A DNA stretch of 44,061 nt, taken from contig JAGWBV010000017.1 in assembly GCA_021295715.1 (NCBI GenBank), positions 1-44,061 of the forward strand, given 5' to 3'. This DNA is from Candidatus Poribacteria bacterium. Lineage in GTDB: Bacteria; Poribacteria; WGA-4E; WGA-3G. Shown here in pieces: positions 2,926 to 43,722 of the stretch (position 1 is the first letter of the stretch; each line of letters starts with the position of its first letter). The position numbers were made by a program, and so were the translations under genes. Under the pieces are notes generated by a model. It was not told where the DNA came from, made no database searches, and worked only from the letters and a program-made list of their open reading frames with translations.

Positions 2926-2960
2926 GGCTGTCAGCAGTCGGCTTTCGGCTGTCGGTTCAG
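2926..2960. repeat. GGCTGTCAGCAGTCGG-type interspersed repeat patch
   Basis: This patch is built from near-identical 8-10 nt words (GGCTGTCAG, CAGTCGGCTTTCGG, CTGTCGGTTCAG). Related words recur between genes and inside the PBP1C and alpha-2-macroglobulin reading frames of this window. Confidence 0.55.
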
Positions 2961-3082
2961 AACTTTTTGAATGACCGTCAGTCTGCTGTTTGATTCGAGC
3001 GTTTCAGAAAACTGAAAGTACCCCGACTGATAGTTGAAAGTCGATAGCCAATTTGCTATGTCAGGTTAGCGGAGGAAAATAC

Positions 3083-9276: not shown

Positions 9277-9403
9277 GAAGAGACTCATGAATCATAGTGG
9301 AACTCAAAAAGCACAGCATATCGGCTATCAACGTGTTGGTGTTAGAAGTTAGTTCATCAGAGGCTCTTGCTGATTGCTGACTGGAATTAAAAAGGAGGCA
9401 TCC

Positions 9404-9790: not shown

Positions 9791-9930
9791 ATTTAAGGTT
9801 AGGGTCATTTAGTTCGCCATTTTTAGGAGAATTTTGGATGCCCTGGCCCGGTAGGTGCGGTTTCCTAACCGCACCGGATCCACCCAAAGTCCCATAATTG
9901 CTTAAAACTAAATGACCCTAATTTAAGGTT
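9791..9930. mobile_element. MITE-like element with terminal inverted repeats and 10-bp target duplication
   Basis: The 120-bp core (9801-9920) is bounded by perfect 14-bp inverted repeats: AGGGTCATTTAGTT at 9801-9814 and its complement at 9907-9920. It is flanked by the 10-bp direct repeat ATTTAAGGTT at 9791-9800 and 9921-9930, as expected of a target-site duplication. Inside lies GTAGG plus a 9-bp stem (GGTGCGGTT-TCCT-AACCGCACC, 9854-9875). It has no coding capacity, so a transposase would act in trans; 9-12 bp duplications are typical of the IS4 group, but assignment is uncertain. It fills the 303-bp gap 9773-10075. Confidence 0.75.
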
Positions 9931-10075
9931 GACAGTTCTGACATGTTTATGTAAAATAATTGTAACGAAGGTAACGTGACACATCCACTTTGTAATGACC
10001 GCGAGCATCCTATATCTGCTTGGCGCAGAAGGCGGCGATTCGATACTCCGGCTATAAATCTAAGGAGAATCTCTC

Positions 10076-10797: not shown

Positions 10798-11646
10798 ATG
10801 AAGAGACTGGTTATTCTTTTTTTTACAGTTTTGATTTCTACGCAGGTTGAAGCCAATTTCAATTTTGCGGTTCATACGGACTCACATCCTTGGGCGCGTG
10901 AAGATCCCAAAGGTGCCCAAGAGGAAATTGATGCCTTGATTAAGATTATTGATAATAAGGTAAACCTAACGGCTTTTGACCCCAAGGATATTAAGGGATT
11001 AGCAGATTGGGTCAAGGCACACACAGAAGGTGGTGGGAATACTCTGATTCTGACAGGTATTACTCCATCAACGATTTATCCGATTGGTAATGCGAAACCT
11101 GATGGCTCGCTTCTTGAAGAGTTCCTTGATGCCGGCAACACGGTTTTCAATACGGGTGAATATACCTTTTATACGTCGGAAGGACCCGATGAAACGAACG
11201 GACAAGCTGCATTACCCAATGTCGTCGACGTTCCAGAAGCATTCGTATGGCAGGGTAAAGGTCCAGACGCTTGGCAGGGCGCTCCAGTTGAAATGACCCC
11301 GACACAGGAAGGCAAAGACCTCATACCGAGTCTGAAAAAGTATAACACCTCTTATCCGTTCCATCTTGAGGATTACGAAGGAAGTCCCTGGGAGTTGGAG
11401 ATCGCGCTTGCTGAGAATGATGATCAAGATCCGCGGGTTGAACCGGCTGTGCTATACAACAAAGACACCGGCGGCCGCCTCGGCATCTTCGTCCAGACCT
11501 ATGTGGGTGATGTGCCGCATCCGGGTGTCTCGTGGGGCGCGATTATGGGTGAATTCATCGTTAATTATTACCTACCAGAGGTTTTATCGGTTGAACCGAC
11601 CGGTAAATTAACAACGACATGGGGAAAACTGAAATCCCCGAAATAG
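10798..11646 (+). CDS. Secreted protein of unknown function with C-terminal KLTTTWGKLK motif
   Basis: A 282-residue exported protein starting at ATG 10798 after AGGAGAAAG, with a short signal peptide ending near Q-V-E-A. I do not recognise the body with certainty. The segment N-T-L-I-L-T-G-I-T-P-S-T-I-Y-P then D-G-S-L-L-E-E-F-L-D-A-G-N-T-V-F-N-T-G-E resembles the flavodoxin-like core of ThuA or glutamine-amidotransferase-like proteins, where a strand leads into 'a gap or barrier opened by the leader' type loops, but no catalytic triad is visible. A late G-R-L-G-I-F-V-Q-T-Y-V-G strand fits an alpha/beta fold. It ends T-G-K-L-T-T-T-W-G-K-L-K-S-P-K. It lies in the middle of the three-gene secreted cluster. 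Confidence 0.75.
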   Translation: MKRLVILFFTVLISTQVEANFNFAVHTDSHPWAREDPKGAQEEIDALIKIIDNKVNLTAFDPKDIKGLADWVKAHTEGGGNTLILTGITPSTIYPIGNAKPDGSLLEEFLDAGNTVFNTGEYTFYTSEGPDETNGQAALPNVVDVPEAFVWQGKGPDAWQGAPVEMTPTQEGKDLIPSLKKYNTSYPFHLEDYEGSPWELEIALAENDDQDPRVEPAVLYNKDTGGRLGIFVQTYVGDVPHPGVSWGAIMGEFIVNYYLPEVLSVEPTGKLTTTWGKLKSPK

Positions 11647-11706
11647 CAGTCGGTCATTAAAAAATTGGAGGAAAATGTGAAGGTGATGCTTTCACAGGAG
11701 ATAAAG

Positions 11707-12495: not shown

Positions 12496-15228
12496 CTACC
12501 GAATTAATGAGATATGGAGCGGACGGGTTGCTGAGCGACCCTCCGCATCCACACAAGTTAACACATGTTTCCCTCTGGCAGGCGTAAGCCAGTATTGTTG
12601 TCCTGCGCTCCCTTGAAAAATTAACTCGCCATCCAAAAACCAGAACAGATCCTGTGTCCGACTCGAAGCCGAGGCGATCAATCGAATCTTTTGGTTTTCC
12701 AGTGGCACCCCTTCCCGAATGTAATAGATAGTATCTTCTGCTGGAGATAAAATAACCGGAGCGTTCCCCGCGATTGTGCCGGTACACAAAGGATTATGCT
12801 CCGGCAGGACAGATACAGCAAAACCATTCTCTGCCAACCAAGTCGCCGCATCAGCGGGCCACTCTTCAAATATTTTTGCTTGTGCTTCGTTAAATGAGGT
12901 GCGAGTTGTAGCGTGGCTTTCAGTGTATTGGCTATCTTTCTGACTGCTGGTTGCTGACGGCTGACGGCTATTCTTACGACAATGGGAGCAGAGACTGTAT
13001 CCTGTCGTTTCATCGACATAGATGCGTTTATGAATCGCGCAAACCGCTACAGACGAGATGCCCGGGATATACACATCCTCTTTATGGATCGGACAGTGCG
13101 GTGAAATCGGCGCGCCACTCAGGGCACATATTTGTCGTGTTTTCAGTTGTTCCGGCTTAGTAAACCAGCGGTGTGTGTCCTGCCCTGTCAAGGCAGTGAA
13201 GAGCGCGAAGAGAATCGGAGTTGCTGCATCTGTACCGCTCAGCAGTGGAGTCCCCTTTCCATCGAAATTACCGAGCCATACACCAATTGTTAATGTCGGC
13301 GAGTACCCGATGCACCATGCATCTCGGTGTCCATAAGAAGTCCCCGTCTTCCATGCAATCTTCGGTAGATTCATTGTCCTTTCAAAGGCTTCTGGATTTT
13401 TAACCGTGTTGGTAGGCAGTTGTGAGTTTGTTAGCATTTCCGTTATGATGAAACTTGTCTCTTTTTGAAGTAAACGTTGCGAGAAATAGTTTTCGGGGCG
13501 TTCGCTGCGCTCGCTTTCGGCTGTCGGAAACCGTCGGTTAAGAGGTATTAAACGTTCAGATCCTTCTTGTGCCTGACTGCTATTTCTTGGGAGCGTTAAT
13601 TGATAAGGTCCAAATTCTCCCATATTTGCCAATCCAGCGTAAAGTGTTGTTAATTCAAGCAGATTTACTTCGCATCCGCCGAGAACCATAGAAAGTCCGT
13701 ACTTTTGGGCAGGCGCGAGTGTAGAGATACCAGCCTGTTTGAGGAAGGCGTGTAGAGTGACGTTTTTCAAGCGCGCATTAAGATTAACGGCAGGAACATT
13801 GAGGGAACGTGCCAATGCCTGACGGGTAGTGACATAACCGTTATATTTCCCATTGTAGTTCACTGGCGTATAGCCAGCGTAGGTAACAGGGACATCGAAT
13901 AACAATGTTTCTGGTGTAATCAAGCCCTCTTCCATTGCGAGGGCATAGACGAAAGGTTTGAGGGCAGAACCGGGAGAACGCGGTGCGAGCGTCCCATTTA
14001 TCTGTCCTAATGCGCTCCGATCGAAAAAATCGTGGGAACCTACCATTGCTAAGACATGGCGGTTTTGGGTATCCATGACGATGATTGCGCCTGTGCTGGT
14101 GCTATGGGATCCGCGCAAACTCGGTTTGCGCTCTGCATCCACAAGATATTCGTTAAGGATGCGTACCGCTGTCTCCTGAACCTTCGCGTCTATGGTCGTG
14201 TATACCCTGCCATTTGTTGTTGTTGATTTTGCATGTTTAACCAACATGCGTGAGAGATGTGGTGCTTTGAATGGAAGTGGGTAGCGTTTGTGCGGGATCG
14301 GTTCTTGGAGTGCCTCCTGCCATTGCTGTTCGGAAATTTGTCGATGTGCAAGAAGACGGTTCAAGACTTTTTCGCGTGCCTTTCGTGCGTTTTCTGGGAA
14401 CCTGTCAGGTCGCAAACGTTCTGGGGCGTTCGGAATGGCAGCGAGAAGTGCGGCTTCACCAAGACTAAGTGTGTGCTGGGGTTTGTTGAAGTAGAACCGC
14501 GAGGCTGCTGCTGTCCCGACGATATTCCCACCATACGGGAGCATATTGAAATAAAACGTTAAAATCTCTGATTTGGAATAGGTATGTTCGAGTTGAAGTG
14601 CACGGAACATCTCAATGAGTTTGTTCGGAATGTTACGCGCCTTGGGTTCCATCAGTCGAGCGAGTTGCATGGTGATGGTCGAACCACCGCGCACCACTTC
14701 ACCTGCTTTCAAGTTGTCATAGATGGCTGTTGCAATTGACACAGGGTTGATGCCATAGTGATAGTAAAACCACCTATCTTCCGATGTGAGTATTGCTTGG
14801 TGTAGTAAGTGGCTATCAGCCATCAGCCGTCGGCTATCAGTAAAGGGGTTTTTTGGTAAGTGGCTATCAGCCATCGGCACGGGTTGCTGCCCAATCCTTT
14901 CAGCCGTCAGTTTGCTGATTGCTGGTTGCTGACTGCTGGTTGCTATTCGCCACATGCCATCGTCGGCTAAAAATGCTCGAAGCCACTCGCCGTTTCTGTC
15001 CAATACAATCTGAGATACCGGTGGATGGAGACGTGCTTTGGGTAGCGGAAAACACCAGTTTGCGAGCATCAAAAGAATGAGAATTAACAAAAAAGGTAGC
15101 ATTACAGTTATCAGTTTCCGGAAGAGTGGTTGTCGGTTGTCGGAGGGGTTTGTTAAACGAGGGGGAAACGCCCAAGCAAAAACACCTCTTAACTGAAAAC
15201 TGAAAACTGAAAACTGAAAACTATTCAT
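12496..15228 (-). CDS. pbpC: Penicillin-binding protein 1C (bifunctional transglycosylase/transpeptidase)
   Basis: A 910-residue inner-membrane peptidoglycan synthase. One membrane helix (about 41-60) is followed by a GT51 transglycosylase domain (E150-D-R-W-F; G-G-S-T-I-T-M-Q-L-A-R). The transpeptidase domain has S421-A-L-K424, R-S-L-N and K627-T-G-T-S, and a C-terminal PBP1C domain ends the protein. It is longer than usual (about 770-800) because of low-complexity inserts near residues 97-143, near 560-590 and near 757-775, all made of repeat words. The ATG overlaps the stop of the alpha-2-macroglobulin gene (TAATG), so the two are translationally coupled, as in the known YfhM-PbpC pairing. 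The first codons lie in a 7-nt tandem repeat; M43 (15102) is an alternative start. Confidence 0.93.
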   Translation of the reverse strand: MNSFQFSVFSFQLRGVFAWAFPPRLTNPSDNRQPLFRKLITVMLPFLLILILLMLANWCFPLPKARLHPPVSQIVLDRNGEWLRAFLADDGMWRIATSSQQPAISKLTAERIGQQPVPMADSHLPKNPFTDSRRLMADSHLLHQAILTSEDRWFYYHYGINPVSIATAIYDNLKAGEVVRGGSTITMQLARLMEPKARNIPNKLIEMFRALQLEHTYSKSEILTFYFNMLPYGGNIVGTAAASRFYFNKPQHTLSLGEAALLAAIPNAPERLRPDRFPENARKAREKVLNRLLAHRQISEQQWQEALQEPIPHKRYPLPFKAPHLSRMLVKHAKSTTTNGRVYTTIDAKVQETAVRILNEYLVDAERKPSLRGSHSTSTGAIIVMDTQNRHVLAMVGSHDFFDRSALGQINGTLAPRSPGSALKPFVYALAMEEGLITPETLLFDVPVTYAGYTPVNYNGKYNGYVTTRQALARSLNVPAVNLNARLKNVTLHAFLKQAGISTLAPAQKYGLSMVLGGCEVNLLELTTLYAGLANMGEFGPYQLTLPRNSSQAQEGSERLIPLNRRFPTAESERSERPENYFSQRLLQKETSFIITEMLTNSQLPTNTVKNPEAFERTMNLPKIAWKTGTSYGHRDAWCIGYSPTLTIGVWLGNFDGKGTPLLSGTDAATPILFALFTALTGQDTHRWFTKPEQLKTRQICALSGAPISPHCPIHKEDVYIPGISSVAVCAIHKRIYVDETTGYSLCSHCRKNSRQPSATSSQKDSQYTESHATTRTSFNEAQAKIFEEWPADAATWLAENGFAVSVLPEHNPLCTGTIAGNAPVILSPAEDTIYYIREGVPLENQKIRLIASASSRTQDLFWFLDGELIFQGSAGQQYWLTPARGKHVLTCVDAEGRSATRPLHISLIR
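12930..12972. repeat. In-frame repeat patch near the PBP1C C-terminus
   Basis: Words such as TGACTGCTGGTTGCTGACGG and CTGACGGCTATTC lie inside the coding frame, giving a short Q/S-rich linker (N-S-R-Q-P-S-A-T-S-S-Q) just after C-S-H-C. The same words appear between genes elsewhere in the window. Confidence 0.5.
13496..13560. repeat. In-frame repeat patch in the PBP1C transpeptidase domain
   Basis: CGCTGCGCTCGCTTTCGGC and GTCGGAAACCGTCGGTTAAG words encode P-L-N-R-R-F-P-T-A-E-S-E-R-S-E-R-P-E, an insert between two conserved transpeptidase segments where the family has a short loop. Confidence 0.45.
14805..14945. repeat. In-frame repeat insert at the transglycosylase entrance of PBP1C
   Basis: The 19-nt word GTAAGTGGCTATCAGCCAT occurs exactly twice (14805-14823 and 14856-14874), 51 nt apart. 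TGCTGATTGCTGGTTGCTGA-type words follow at 14913-14943. In the protein this gives residues about 97-143, a Q/S/A-rich stretch with M-A-D-S-H-L repeated, just before the conserved T-S-E-D-R-W-F. Confidence 0.75.
15191..15222 (-). repeat. Heptanucleotide tandem repeat at the start of pbpC
   Basis: About 4.6 copies of AACTGAA (plus strand) lie within the first 12 codons of the PBP1C gene, encoding S-F-Q-F-S-V-F-S-F-Q-L. Seven is not a multiple of three, so loss or gain of one unit would shift the frame relative to the start codon. Confidence 0.8.
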
Positions 15229-18200
15229 TATTCTGCAGCCACTGTAATACGCATACTACCCGTTACAGCGGATTTTGTTGTATCGTACATCGCCTCGGCG
15301 ACAATGGGGGGTAAGGTGAATTCGCCTTGTGTGACGGCGCGTAACGCGTAATAGAATTTACGTTCACGTTGGCGTGGAAACGTGCCGAAGAAGATGAGCC
15401 TGTCATCACGAATATCAATGTAATCCGGTTTGAAATCCTGTGCTTTCAGCCATGAAATACCTGCTCGGGATTCTAACCGCGGATTCTCAATTTCGAATCC
15501 TGTAGGTAACATATCAACGACAACAACGTTTTCAAGATTGGCTGTGAGGGCTTTGACGTTTACCTCAGCGATGATCAGTTCCCCGTGTGCGAAGGTGCCT
15601 GTCCGTTCTTCGCCGTCTTTGTTAAAATAGCGTCTGCGGACTTGTAGTTCGTGTTCATATTCTTCAATGAAGGAATCGCGTTGGATACCAAACGCGCTCC
15701 AATAATAGTAGCAACTGCCCTCACCTTTGACAGAGAGTTGAACGCGCGTCCCATCCCATGCTTTATCGGTATAGCGGGTCTCCGTTGCGTCAAAGTCGAC
15801 GAAATGTTCATCATTAAGTGTCAGGGTACCGGTGTAATTTTTATCCATCTGTTTCTTCAGGATCTTGCCGAGTGCCAGAAACGCAAAAGCGTTTTCTTGT
15901 GTTGTTGCCCATCGGTTCCCCGCAGATGCTGCCTCACTTAGATTTTGGACAAGCATTGGGATTGACGGGTGGTTTTCGTTAACTTCAGCGAGAACGTCTA
16001 ACATGATGGCTTGGGCTCGAATGGGAGAATCAAGCGTTCCGCCTGTCTCGCGTTGTCCGTTACCCTTATTAAAATTAGGTGATACTGACACCGGTAGCAT
16101 TGACAGAGCGGTTTCCAGTTCGCCGCTGAGAGCGAACGCTCCTGCGAGTTGAAAGTGGCTATAATCACTGAGTCCGCTCAAGCCTCTGTTTTTGAGATAG
16201 TGCATCGTGCCTCGATCGGGATGTCCGGCAGCAGCTAAGACGTAAGCGGCATAGGTGGCTAATGAAATCTTTTTTCTTATCTCTTGTGCTTCCCCAAGCG
16301 AGCTTGTGAAGTCGTCTTCCGTGTTTGGTGAGAATTTCGCCTCTGTTTTTAAACCTTCCACCATTGCGTCGTAAACTCGGTCTGATACCTCATAGCCTGC
16401 CTTTCGTGCCTCGACGAGGAAGTGGGACGCATAGATACTGCTCCATGGGTTCACGTAAGTGCCGCCGGGCCAATAAGCAAAACGATCATCTGATTTCAAC
16501 ATACTTTCGATTTTCGTGATGCCCGATGTGATGTAGTGGTCCACTGCGTCTTCTGCTGCCAGCATCGGTTCGACGCTTCGCGCCAAGTCGCTAAAGTAAA
16601 GCAGTGAAAAAACCTTGCTCGTTGTTTGTTCCAAGCAACCGTGTGGATAGCGTATAAGGTAGCGGAGACTGTCCGCGAACCTGATGTTTGGGAACGGCGA
16701 TAGCGTGAGGCTAAACTCTGACGAATCTGGTATGAAATTCGACGGGAAAATAAAATCAACAGGTTCACCTGCGCGGACCACTCCCTGTCCACTTTGTGTG
16801 ACAGGTGGAGCGATGGAACGCAGTGGGATTTTTACATCCAATTGTGTTGTTTGTGTGTTACCGTGCGCGGAAAGATTGAAATTGGTTTCCCCGATTGCAT
16901 CCTGAACGAGAATATCGAAAAAAACTTGTGCTTCTGCGCCTGCGTCGACTTTCTGATCTATACTGAGTTTATCTACTGCATATTGGCTATCGGAAACCAG
17001 CGGCTGTTGACTTTCAGTAGAGGGGTGATCTTGCTGATCATTGATTCCTGATTGCTGATCGCTGACAGTCGTTGCTGAAAGGAGTCGAACGTCGCCTGAT
17101 GTTTGCAAATCGACCGTAAATTTTCCTTCAGTGCCCGTGCCGTTATAGAGGGTGACCGGTACACGAACCTTATCACCACCTGCAAGGAATCGTGGAAATG
17201 TTGGTGTTAAGACAATAGGTTCACGGACAATTAGATGCGCTTCCGTGCCGCCGTAATCACCGCCCGCGAATGCGACTGCCATCAACCTCAGGGTCCCATT
17301 GAACTGTGGAATCTTGAATTGAACAGACCCTTGACCGTTTCGATCGGTTTTCACGAATCCGGACCAGAGTGAAATCGGTTTTACTCGCCGGATGCTGCCT
17401 GTACTCAATCGCTTCCGTAGTACCGCGTCCCGTGCCGTAAGCGCATCTCCGCCTGTACTTGAATTGTCGGTGACATTTGCGATTTCGGGAAGGATCCCAC
17501 TATACAAGTCAAAGGAGCGCGTCTTAAGCCCGCGCTGTCGATAGAAGTAGTCGTGTGGGTTAGGTGTTTTGAAGTTGGTTAACGCGAGGATCCCTTCATC
17601 AACAGCTGCGATACAAACATCATATTTTTGCCAAGAGCGTCTACCGTGGACTTGGAACGCTATAGTCGCTTCGCGATTCGGTAGTACTGTCACTTCGCTA
17701 TTTTCAGGCTGAGAGACTTCTGCGGACTCTATATTCCTTTGCCGACTGACAAGTGGAATCTTCTGCATATCCCCAGCATCATTTGTCTGACTAAGCGACA
17801 TTTCGATTGAAAGTCGCCTCCGAGTTTCATCTATCTTTAGTGGAATTACCCCAAACGCGCGCGCAGGAAGAGGCGATTTCTTATCAGTCACAGTTCCTTC
17901 CATCGGAATGGCACGTGTCAACGTCGCGGAGAGATACACGTTTGGCCTATAGGCGTACCGGACTGGGATTGATAAAGTTGTGGTATTATTTTTCATCACG
18001 ATTGTCCGGTAACTCAATACCTTTTCCCGTTCGACAGTCAGCAGGAGTGTGCCAGGAAACGGTGCTTTAACATATAGTTTTGCTGTTTGTCCCGGACGAT
18101 AAGCAGGCTTATTAAGCGTTAATTCCAGTCGAGTCGGATGTTCCATAGAAACTGGGATGTTTCCCCATCCGCTGACGTAAAACCCGAGTTCGGCAGTCGC

Positions 18201-26451: not shown

Positions 26452-28230
26452 TTAGTTACTGCCGACGAGACGCTGTGCCTTCATTTTCCGCTTTCGTTTC
26501 GATTTCGACTTAGGTTTCGGTGCGTTAGTTTGGGTGTGTTGCGTTTCTTGGTTATTTTGGGTCGGTTGATTCACTTGAGATGCTGTCGGAAGCACGCCAT
26601 CGCGATGATCGTGATCGCGTGACTTCCGAAGTTGCTGCTGTGCCGCGTACTCGGCATAGTTGCCTTTGAAAAGTTCCGCAGTCCCACCGGGTTTACCGTC
26701 AAAAATTAACAATTTTGTTGCGAGGTTGTTTAGCAAATACCGATCATGAGAAATGATAAAAAGCGTTGCTGGGTATTCCGCCAGTGCTGCTTCCAATGCC
26801 TCACGTGCTGGGATGTCGAGATGGTTCGTTGGTTCATCAAGAAGTAGAACATTCGCATTCGCTAATAGCAACTTCGCGAGTAGTACGCGACTCTGCTCTC
26901 CTCCGCTTAGGTTCCCGATCCTTTTGAACACATCATCACCTGAAAATAGAAACTTACTCAAGAAACTACGTATTTCGCCTTGTGTATGCTTTGGTCGGAG
27001 TGCAGAGATTTCGTCAATAATTTCGTTGTCCGGGTTAAGTCCCTCTAATTCTTGTGCATAGTACCCAAATTTGAGCGTAGGACCTACCCACATTTCCCCC
27101 TCGGTTGGTGTTTCATCACCTAACATCATTCGGAAGAACGTTGTTTTTCCGGTGCCGTTTGCCCCGATAATTCCGATAACATCGCGACGGTATACCTCAC
27201 AATTCAAATCCGCGAAAATGACCTTGTCACCAAATGCTTTGCCAACATTTTGGCATCGGAGGATGTCATTTCCACCACGAGTTTCCGGCGTGAAACTGAG
27301 GCTGAGAGTGGCCGCATCGGATTTCGGTTTTTCGACCCTTTCCAAACGGTTCAGTTTTTTCTGTCTACCTTGTGCCTCTCGTGTGCGTTGCCCCGCCATG
27401 TTGCGGCGAATAAAGTCCTCTTCGTGTTCAATGAACGCCCGTTGTTTTTTGAATGATCGTTCTGCGACTAATTGTTCAACCCTTTTTGTTTCGACGTACT
27501 TGGAGTAGTTTCCACGATAAATTTTTATCTGGTGTTCTTCGAGTTCCCAAACCTTGCGGACGACCTTATCTAAGAAGTACCGATCGTGTGAGACAACGAG
27601 GACTGCTCCGTTGTATTCGACGTTGAGATAGTTTTCGAGCCACTCAATCCCGTTGATGTCAAGATGATTCGTGGGTTCGTCAAAAAGTAGTATATCTGGC
27701 TTTTCGAGGAGTAGTTTCGCGAGTGTTGCTCGGCTTTTCTGTCCACCACTGAGGACACCAATCGGGAGATTGAAGTCCAGTTCACTAAAACCTAAGCCGC
27801 CGAGGATACGATTAATCTCGTGTTCATAATCGTAACCGCCAAGTCGTTCGTGCTGTTCTTGAATCCGAGCGTAAGATGCTAAAAGGTTTGGTGCTTCTTC
27901 TGTTTCCATCTCCTCTGCGAGTAGAAGCATCTTGTCTTCAAGTGCCCGCCGTTTTTCAAAAACTTTGAGCATCTCTTGTCTTAAAGTGCAGTCACGTGCG
28001 AGATCCGGTTCTTGACTGAGGTAGCCGATACGCAGTCCCTTCGCGGAAATAACTTTCCCTTTAAAATTAGCAAGCAAACCGTTTATAATTTTAAGTAACG
28101 TTGTTTTTCCGGTTCCGTTACGGCCAATTAATCCGAGTCGATCTCCATGCTCAATTGAAACCGAAATATCGTCGAGGATCAGGTCTGGATCGTACAATTT
28201 GGTGACGTTTTCTAATCGTATTAAAGACAT
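26452..28230 (-). CDS. ABC-F family ATPase (Uup/EttA-type translation or resistance factor)
   Basis: A 592-residue soluble protein with two ABC ATPase domains in one chain and no membrane helices, as in ABC-F factors that act at the ribosomal E site. Domain 1 has G-R-N-G-T-G-K-T-T near residue 37 and L-S-G-G-Q-K-S-R, followed by D-E-P-T-N-H-L-D. An arginine/lysine-rich linker (about 240-305, F-I-R-R-N-M-A-G-Q-R-T-R-E-A-Q-G-R) corresponds to the P-site tRNA interaction motif. Domain 2 has G-A-N-G-T-G-K-T-T, L-S-G-G-E-Q-S-R and D-E-P-T-N-H-L-D. The tail (from about 530) is low-complexity, Q/T- then K/R-rich. Subgroup assignment is not possible by eye. The ATG 28230 follows the conserved AAGG-N12 leader and a dispersed repeat copy. 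Confidence 0.93.
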   Translation of the reverse strand: MSLIRLENVTKLYDPDLILDDISVSIEHGDRLGLIGRNGTGKTTLLKIINGLLANFKGKVISAKGLRIGYLSQEPDLARDCTLRQEMLKVFEKRRALEDKMLLLAEEMETEEAPNLLASYARIQEQHERLGGYDYEHEINRILGGLGFSELDFNLPIGVLSGGQKSRATLAKLLLEKPDILLFDEPTNHLDINGIEWLENYLNVEYNGAVLVVSHDRYFLDKVVRKVWELEEHQIKIYRGNYSKYVETKRVEQLVAERSFKKQRAFIEHEEDFIRRNMAGQRTREAQGRQKKLNRLERVEKPKSDAATLSLSFTPETRGGNDILRCQNVGKAFGDKVIFADLNCEVYRRDVIGIIGANGTGKTTFFRMMLGDETPTEGEMWVGPTLKFGYYAQELEGLNPDNEIIDEISALRPKHTQGEIRSFLSKFLFSGDDVFKRIGNLSGGEQSRVLLAKLLLANANVLLLDEPTNHLDIPAREALEAALAEYPATLFIISHDRYLLNNLATKLLIFDGKPGGTAELFKGNYAEYAAQQQLRKSRDHDHRDGVLPTASQVNQPTQNNQETQHTQTNAPKPKSKSKRKRKMKAQRLVGSN

Positions 28231-28246
28231 GTTTTAATTTTACCTT
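28228..28246 (-). promoter_or_regulatory. Conserved start-site leader motif (ABC-F gene)
   Basis: The minus strand reads AAGGTAAAATTAAAACATG, preceded by CTCCGC. The 12-nt spacing and the in-frame TAA two codons before the start match the other copies. Confidence 0.7.
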
Positions 28247-28292
28247 GCGGAGAAACGAGGTGCGTTAGGACTTTGAAGCACGTTTCTCAAAT

Positions 28293-28361
28293 CCACCCTC
28301 CAAATGTAAAGCAAAGACAAATTATGCCATTTAAGGAGACCTAATTTCATTACGGGCTACG
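28293..28361 (-). repeat. Dispersed leader repeat, long form with altered left arm (copy B)
   Basis: On the minus strand it runs GTAGCCCGTAATGAAATTA, then TCTCCTTAAATGGCATAATT, then TGTCTTTGCTTTACATTTGG and AGGGTGG. It matches the copies at 39940 and 41281, except that the left arm of the palindrome (ATTATGCC) is replaced by ATTAGGTCTCC. Confidence 0.75.
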
Positions 28362-28397
28362 GTTTTGGATTGCATCTCTAACACCTATAACCAACTG

Positions 28398-29357
28398 CTA
28401 TGAAGCCGAAGCTCCTACCTTTAGGTAGTGGGTGGTATCACGAAGTTTAAATTGAGCACTACGGGTAATCATTTCCTGATATGTATTGGCGCGATGTGGG
28501 TCTGGACGACGGATATTAAATTGCCTGAATCGCCAGAAAGCTATGGAGAGGGCGGCATAGTGAACAAAACAATCTAAACACTGCCGCTCATTTTCTGTCA
28601 ACGGACGCAAGGCATTGTAAGCGTCTAAAAATCGCTGGGCAGCTTCAAGATTTAGTTGATTCTCTGGTGTGTAACAACAACCAATAAGCGTCATTCCAAC
28701 ATCGATCAGTAATGTGTCATAACATCCTTCCTCAAAATCGAGAATCGCAACCATCTGATCGCCGTCGAAAAGGGCATTATCCAAAAAAAGGTCTCCGTGT
28801 AGAAGCCCCATCGGGAGTGGCGCGTTGAGTTGTGGTTCCATCGACTCCAATTGCGATTTCAACGATTCAACGAAAGGATGCGTGGCGAATGGCGTGCCGT
28901 GGATCTCCTCGAAAAAGGGGATCATTTGTGAAATCCCCATTGCGAAACGGGGCAGCCCGGCGATTGGTGGAGTGCAATGCAGTTTTGCCAACGCCTCACC
29001 GAGTTGTGCCAACGTCCCTGGTGAGGATTCTGGTTGTTCCCCTTGCAGGAACGGATAAAGCATCACACTGCCGAATGTCTCCTGTGTGAGGTGTTTCTGG
29101 TCTTTCGTTGGAATGGGATATACCGTCGGATACGCATGTTGGTGGAGATGTTGCAACAGCGTAATTTGCATGTTGAGTTCTATCGAATCTTTTTCATCAC
29201 AGATTTTAAGCAGAAATTCCCCGTCTGTGGTCGTCAGTTTAAAGTTGCTGTTCCCAAATCCGCCGGGAATCTCCTCGAGTTTCAGTGCCGTGCCAATCAG
29301 ATATTGTGAAACGATGCGGTCGAGTTCTGTAGGTGAAAGGGTTGTGTAGCGTGCCAT
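28398..29357 (-). CDS. Aminoglycoside-phosphotransferase-fold kinase, homoserine kinase (ThrB type II)-like
   Basis: A 319-residue kinase of the APH fold. The N-lobe has G-G-F-G-N-S-N-F-K-L (nucleotide loop) and E-F-L-L-K-I-C-D-E with the conserved Lys. The C-lobe has the catalytic L-L-H-G-D-L-F-L-D-N-A-L-F and the metal-binding A-I-L-D-F-E-E-G. The spacing and the D-L-F-x-D-N-x-L-F wording resemble type II homoserine kinases, which phosphorylate homoserine in threonine synthesis; choline or methylthioribose kinases are alternatives. No other threonine genes lie nearby, so the substrate remains open. No strong Shine-Dalgarno site is visible before ATG 29357. The TPR lipoprotein gene lies 20 nt upstream on the same strand. 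Confidence 0.75.
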   Translation of the reverse strand: MARYTTLSPTELDRIVSQYLIGTALKLEEIPGGFGNSNFKLTTTDGEFLLKICDEKDSIELNMQITLLQHLHQHAYPTVYPIPTKDQKHLTQETFGSVMLYPFLQGEQPESSPGTLAQLGEALAKLHCTPPIAGLPRFAMGISQMIPFFEEIHGTPFATHPFVESLKSQLESMEPQLNAPLPMGLLHGDLFLDNALFDGDQMVAILDFEEGCYDTLLIDVGMTLIGCCYTPENQLNLEAAQRFLDAYNALRPLTENERQCLDCFVHYAALSIAFWRFRQFNIRRPDPHRANTYQEMITRSAQFKLRDTTHYLKVGASAS

Positions 29358-31430: not shown

Positions 31431-31462
31431 ATAGGTTATCAGATATTAGTTATCAGTAAAAA
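31431..31462. repeat. GTTATCAGATATTAGTTATC simple repeat patch
   Basis: A patch of GTTATCAG/TTAGTTATCAG words upstream of the propeller gene, of the same kind as the CAGC/GCTATCAG words found elsewhere. Confidence 0.35.
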
Positions 31463-43697: not shown

Positions 43698-43722
43698 CCT
43701 GACGACTGACTGCTGATTGTTA
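43698..43722. repeat. CTGACGACTGACTGCTGATTG repeat patch
   Basis: CTGACGACTGACTGCTGATT and similar words, in the 117-nt gap between the TolC-family stop and the sigma start. It is the same type of word as in the other interspersed patches. Confidence 0.45.

Follow-up and report, generated by a model that had tools for sequence, protein, structure and literature searches.

Palindromic repeats lie in frame within PBP1C and alpha-2-macroglobulin genes of a sponge-associated Candidatus Poribacteria

We analysed a 44,061-nucleotide stretch (the window), one contig of the 5.14-Mb draft genome of a sponge-associated Candidatus Poribacteria. In this contig the gene for PBP1C (Transgly, Transpeptidase and BiPBP_C domains) adjoins that for a YfhM-like bacterial alpha-2-macroglobulin (A2M), both on the minus strand. 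A model that read only the letters (the sequence-only reading) had proposed that interspersed repeats were inserted in frame into these two genes. We followed this up by comparison with other genomes (numbered with G below), most of them metagenome-derived drafts. The repeat features of the window are as follows.

2926..3040, plus strand: intergenic element, left arm TGGCTGTCAGCAGTCGGC, right arm CTGATAGTTGAAAGTCGATAGCCA
9363..9383, plus strand: intergenic arm GCTGATTGCTGACTG just upstream of a gene, absent from G010
11636..11675 (approximate), plus strand: element remnant AATAGCAGTCGGTCATT; the element is 91 bp longer in G010
12874..12975, minus strand: PBP1C insert 3, residues 752-785, preceding the BiPBP_C domain, with heptamer arm AATAGCCGTCAGCCGTCAGC...
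13480..13587, minus strand: PBP1C insert 2, residues 548-583, degenerate element within a transpeptidase-region loop
14805..14946, minus strand: PBP1C insert 1, residues about 98-139, complete two-armed element containing a 20-nt duplication
15121..15228, minus strand: fifth copy, forming the PBP1C 5' end, ATGAATAGTTTTCAGTTTTCAG...AAGAGGTGTTTTTGCTTGGGCG...
16975..17072, minus strand: heptamer arm in the A2M (YfhM-like) linker, residues 1293-1322
26585..26629, minus strand: 45-bp palindrome in frame in an ABC-F-type ATPase gene, reads RKSRDHDHRDGVLP
31431..31462, plus strand: degenerate TTATCAG-flavoured repeat between genes, not recovered by the arm-block scan
43698..43722, plus strand: intergenic arm, found by arm-pattern searches

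All but one of these lines concern an imperfect palindrome, roughly 75-240 bp in size, in which degenerate heptamer arms face each other across an AAGAGG...CCTCTT core. The element runs from a TAGC/TGGC end through heptamers, the core with its variable content and the opposite arm to GCTA/GCCA. The arm units are NNTCAGY on one side and RCTGANN on the other, the heptamers being of the RTCAGCN or TTNTCAG type, and 43 of 49 arrays are of mixed units. Among arms with a neighbour within 200 bp, we found 12 pairs in the converging left-then-right order and none in the diverging order. Given this order of NNTCAGY, core and RCTGANN, a single strand folds into a hairpin. Two-armed copies indeed gave a mean hairpin z of -4.1, with 26 of 29 below -2, a test that is partly circular because the elements were selected for having both arms. 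As a separate observation, a 20-22 nt word, GTGTTTTTGCTTGGGTGTTTC, recurs within otherwise unrelated repeats (window 15160-15190 and many other loci), as if itself inserted.

The catalogue of the family draws on searches by pattern, on 444 kb of sequence taken unselected and on another 40 loci picked by arm pattern, and the control for motif counts was the same pattern reversed. Across the 5.14-Mb genome, GCTGATTGCTGA matched 64 times and its reversed word not once, and the three-unit arm TCAGYNNTCAGYNNTCAG matched 244 times as against 27 for its control; arm blocks in the unselected sequence numbered 46, with 5 for the control. Of 37 genomes from the genus, 36 had the strict arm pattern; the 21 genomes examined from the family's other genera had none. 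A degenerate pattern gave 20-403 matches per genome in all 38 genus genomes, in contrast to 0-20 in the other genera of the family and few further out, except in G075. This genome, from another class of the phylum, held 77 TCAGTRA-flavoured heptamer-arm matches, and the reversed control none. The stretches in PBP1C and A2M thus belong to a dispersed repeat family that is abundant in the genus and scarce outside it.

Repeat words had been reported at eight places, and we recovered them, far above chance, at 12930-12972, 14805-14945, 16975-17070, 2926-2960, 9363-9383 and 43698-43722. At 31431-31462 the repeat is a degenerate TTATCAG version. None of the quoted words occurs at 13496-13560, where a degenerate right arm and AAGAGG could be recognised only via orthologues. 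Rfam gave no match within the window, and an nhmmer search with a hand-made palindrome seed recovered just the best copies because the arms diverge.

Within PBP1C, insert 1 directly precedes the glycosyltransferase domain, the alignment to a solved PBP1A beginning at residue 142-143. A word in it recurs exactly, at 14805 and again 51 nt on at 14856, the spacing first described; its length is 20 nt and not 19. The duplication also occurs in G010 and is therefore not specific to the source genome. The place of insert 2 is occupied in orthologues by CAGTCAGCAGTCAGAAAACC...GCTGAAAGCCGATGGCTGAAGGC, and insert 3 consists of heptamers in the source genome, G010 and G013. The first 30-odd codons of PBP1C are themselves an element (15121-15228) that the sequence-only reading had not listed; it is common to the source genome, G010, G017 and G008, and other repeats stand in its place in G001, G007, G018 and G013.

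Across the genus the three internal inserts are hypervariable, ranging over 7-60, 8-56 and 10-70 residues at sites 1, 2 and 3, respectively, alongside 756 alignment columns with at most one gap. Their frames are intact, and the best orthologue matches carried no internal stops. Inserts of equal length and high conservation, which would have spoken for functional loops, were not seen. The inserts had also been said to replace short loops of their protein families. This holds for PBP1C sites 1 and 3, which measure 8 residues in 7 of 7 outgroup genomes, but not for site 2, already variable in the outgroups (9-48 residues), nor for A2M. Order-promoting residues make up 0.06-0.21 of the three internal inserts and the A2M linker, compared with 0.34 of the PBP1C core; the N-terminal element is not order-poor (0.40). 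An AlphaFold2 model of PBP1C built with nine sequences was uninformative (pLDDT 30). At site 3, four genomes (G011, G016, G019 and G018) carry other long inserts without heptamers, so that this loop seems prone to inserts of several types. The A2M stretch is part of a linker of about 30 residues common to the genus orthologues, and its composition is 47% Q/S/N and 13% order-promoting residues. Palindromic repeats thus do lie in frame in tolerant linkers of both proteins, much as in Rickettsia.

Genome-wide, about a quarter of the two-armed copies are genic, and most others lie in spacers between co-directional genes. Strict arm clusters fell inside ORFs of at least 150 aa in 9 of 57 cases, with hosts that include MurD, a CHAD protein, DUF4340, DUF4159, altronate dehydratase and an FGE-sulfatase. 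MurD has one copy at or before its start and one internal. At the internal position, the closest relatives carry another loop of comparable length that lacks heptamers, and other genera carry almost nothing. An open frame runs through all seven genic two-armed copies, one of which (C3:52120, in a 150-aa frame) may be a chance ORF, compared with 8 of 22 intergenic copies. The latter are open less often than shuffles (8 versus 13.9 expected), implying that openness within genes is survivorship and that the element is not built to code. We therefore rejected the idea that it is pre-adapted to coding.

In a DUF4159 gene (C6:7948), all left-arm units read GCCGTCA in the source genome and GTCGTCA in G010, which indicates that the units were homogenised in place; the right arm differs little between the two genomes. 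Joint correction of both palindrome arms is not supported, since this locus changed mainly in its left arm. The cores at C3:68090 are alike by eye and the arms switch flavour, and in close relatives other heptamer slots have no element or a repeat of another type. Because the flavour or the type of repeat in several slots differs from species to species, turnover in place can look like insertion. Precise presence and absence was observed at one spacer, C3:53272, where 123 bp are missing from G008. Reading this site as an insertion was rejected: G017 has an element built alike at the site, which makes a precise loss from G008 the more probable event. No clear target-site duplication was found for the family at this single clean empty site, and no transposase could be linked to it among the Y1 transposases examined. 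We therefore find no support for the view that each insert is recent: slots are occupied across much of the genus while their arms change in place, and in close relatives the corresponding slot can be filled by a loop of similar length that is unrelated. The heptamer slots in PBP1C and A2M are fast-turning-over and not demonstrably recent insertions, given that homogenisation acts on the arms in place and that a linker of about 30 residues is found in A2M genus-wide.

Taken together, we propose, with a probability of roughly 0.7, that these stretches represent a non-autonomous palindromic repeat limited to the genus, whose copies spread by insertion and then turned over. We infer mobility for this family: the element would be mobilised in trans and its copies would spread by insertion. 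Genic copies would survive only with one frame open through them and would then give hydrophilic loops on translation, SSQQSAVSSQQ...LLTDSRRLMADSH, and copies would later turn over by slippage, unit homogenisation and hairpin deletion.

Mobility might be dispensable if heptamer arrays expanded and homogenised via replication slippage and hairpin template switching in tolerant linkers or spacers. The unit switch between the source genome and G010 at C6:7948, the altered arm flavour around similar cores at C3:68090 and the heptamer-free loop of similar length in the MurD slot of relatives are all in accordance with this. However, copies with both arms and the core are found at many scattered loci and almost exclusively in one genus, and the 43 of 49 arrays with mixed units are not pure slippage products. 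We regard this explanation as unlikely.

It is less likely still that selection spread the intergenic copies as signals for translation or mRNA processing, with the genic copies as by-products. Their placement is suggestive: of the 23 intergenic copies classified, 22 are flanked by co-directional genes (expected share 71-74%, P about 0.004-0.008), most sit a few bases from the preceding stop codon, with the next start usually following 6-30 bases after the copy, and the TAACTGA repeats of Beggiatoaceae are similarly placed (PMC4679880). Yet gene calls and starts around these copies were made mechanically, and orthologous slots are empty or hold unrelated repeats in close relatives.

Movement of REP-type elements by a RAYT (Y1 transposase) is very improbable. 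Like REP/BIME sequences, the heptamer elements are short palindromes in spacers, and Y1_Tnp was found in 35 of 36 genus genomes; but copy number does not correlate with Y1 count (Spearman 0.08, P 0.64), G013 has many arms with no Y1 found, none of the eight Y1 loci read carries arms, and no GTAG/CGTC end is apparent by eye. A RAYT origin is thus disfavoured by both the copy-number correlation and the reading of the Y1 loci. That PBP1C and A2M keep the inserts as conserved functional loops is scarcely credible, since the inserts vary freely in length and sequence and the PBP1C outgroups lack sites 1 and 3, even though the A2M linker persists at about 30 residues genus-wide.

The strongest support for in-frame palindromes came from a second family, outside the coordinates of the sequence-only reading. 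It is a 45-bp palindrome, GCGGAAGCACGCCATCACGATGATCGTGATCGCGTGACTTCCGAG, unrelated to the heptamer family and present in 32 genome copies at no more than 2 mismatches, with 0 for the control. The copy in the ABC-F-type gene (26585-26629) adds exactly 45 nt, that is 15 codons, and is absent from G010, G018, G001, G022, G005 and G023; another (C3:77700-77744) lengthens a DUF2126 gene by 45 nt, and G008 and G010 lack it. These filled and empty orthologues show recent in-frame insertion for this family. The palindrome thus behaves like the heptamer family and displays directly an in-frame insertion. Any target-site duplication would be of at most 1-2 bp, and about 1.3 Mb of relatives' sequence (with some overlap) held one distant match, in G011 (two overlapping loci).

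Sixteen of the 30 loci read lie inside ORFs of at least 150 aa. The hosts comprise RecG (two loci on one contig, apparently in the same gene), a RecQ-like helicase, PdxA, LpxB, DprA, a QueG-like protein, a histidine kinase, ABC transporters, a GH95 enzyme and a DNA methylase. Three of the six frames of the palindrome are open. Nine genic copies on one strand read AEARHHDDRDRVTSE and seven on the other read RKSRDHDHRDGVLP, both hydrophilic; the hydrophobic third open frame is used in 0 of 16, for which the chance is (2/3)^16, or about 0.0015, if the three open frames are equally likely. The family seems suited to in-frame insertion because the net gain is 45 nt, three of six frames are open and only the two hydrophilic ones are used.

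The closest known parallel is provided by the Rickettsia palindromic elements (RPE; Ogata 2000, 2002), palindromic repeats in frame in unrelated housekeeping genes, about 150 bp in length and predicted to be translated as extra segments (PMC10969869). Both Poribacteria families are likewise interspersed in many copies and in frame within unrelated housekeeping genes. They differ in that the host is a 5-Mb sponge symbiont and not a reduced intracellular genome, that the heptamer family has degenerate periodic arms and that the second family measures 45 bp. By analogy, they appear to be Rickettsia-like coding palindromes in a new lineage, the likeness to RPE being one of behaviour. Direct repeats of the heptamer TAACTGA are known from marine Beggiatoaceae, Cyanobacteria and Bacteroidetes (MacGregor 2015, PMC4679880), where they lie upstream of start codons and occasionally in ORFs as Q/S-containing heptapeptides, and would read LSVISYQ (PMC4679880). 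The Poribacteria units are seven bases in the same register (TCAGTTA is the reverse complement) and recall these repeats, and intergenic copies also lie just upstream of start codons. In contrast to the TAACTGA repeats, the units are degenerate and their arms face as a palindrome with a core; pure TAACTGA tandems amounted to two pairs in 444 kb, the arrays being mostly mixed NNTCAGY. The heptamer family further resembles MITEs, being short, non-autonomous and interspersed with terminal inverted repeats, but no parent transposase turned up among the Y1 transposases examined and no clear target-site duplication at the one clean empty site. Neither palindrome family was found described for Poribacteria in a literature search of a limited collection.

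We lean slightly towards the broader view that at least two unrelated palindrome families independently entered coding sequence in frame in one large-genome genus of Poribacteria. In-frame palindrome invasion of housekeeping genes has so far been a hallmark of Rickettsia, known mainly there, and that case leaves two readings, an effect of genome reduction or a general means by which proteins gain new segments. If the broader view is true, protein-coding palindromes would be a recurrent route to new protein loops and not a peculiarity of Rickettsiales. With 5-Mb genomes, dozens of sequenced congeners and clean filled and empty orthologues, the question is testable in Poribacteria, as are rates of gain and loss, the choice of frame, which loops tolerate inserts and whether inserts gain function.

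Two other repeats were noted in the window. A MITE-like insertion of about 130 bp at 9815-9935, with ends TTAGGGTCATTTAGTT...AACTAAATGACCCTAA and a possible 9-bp duplication TTTAAGGTT, is absent from G010, G017 and G008. Another interspersed repeat, with the words TTTTAATTTTTCCTTGCGGTTCGGTC and CTCCAAATGTAAAGCAAAGACAAATTATGCC, occurs at 28234-28440 and on C3/C6, and is absent from G010 at the window site.
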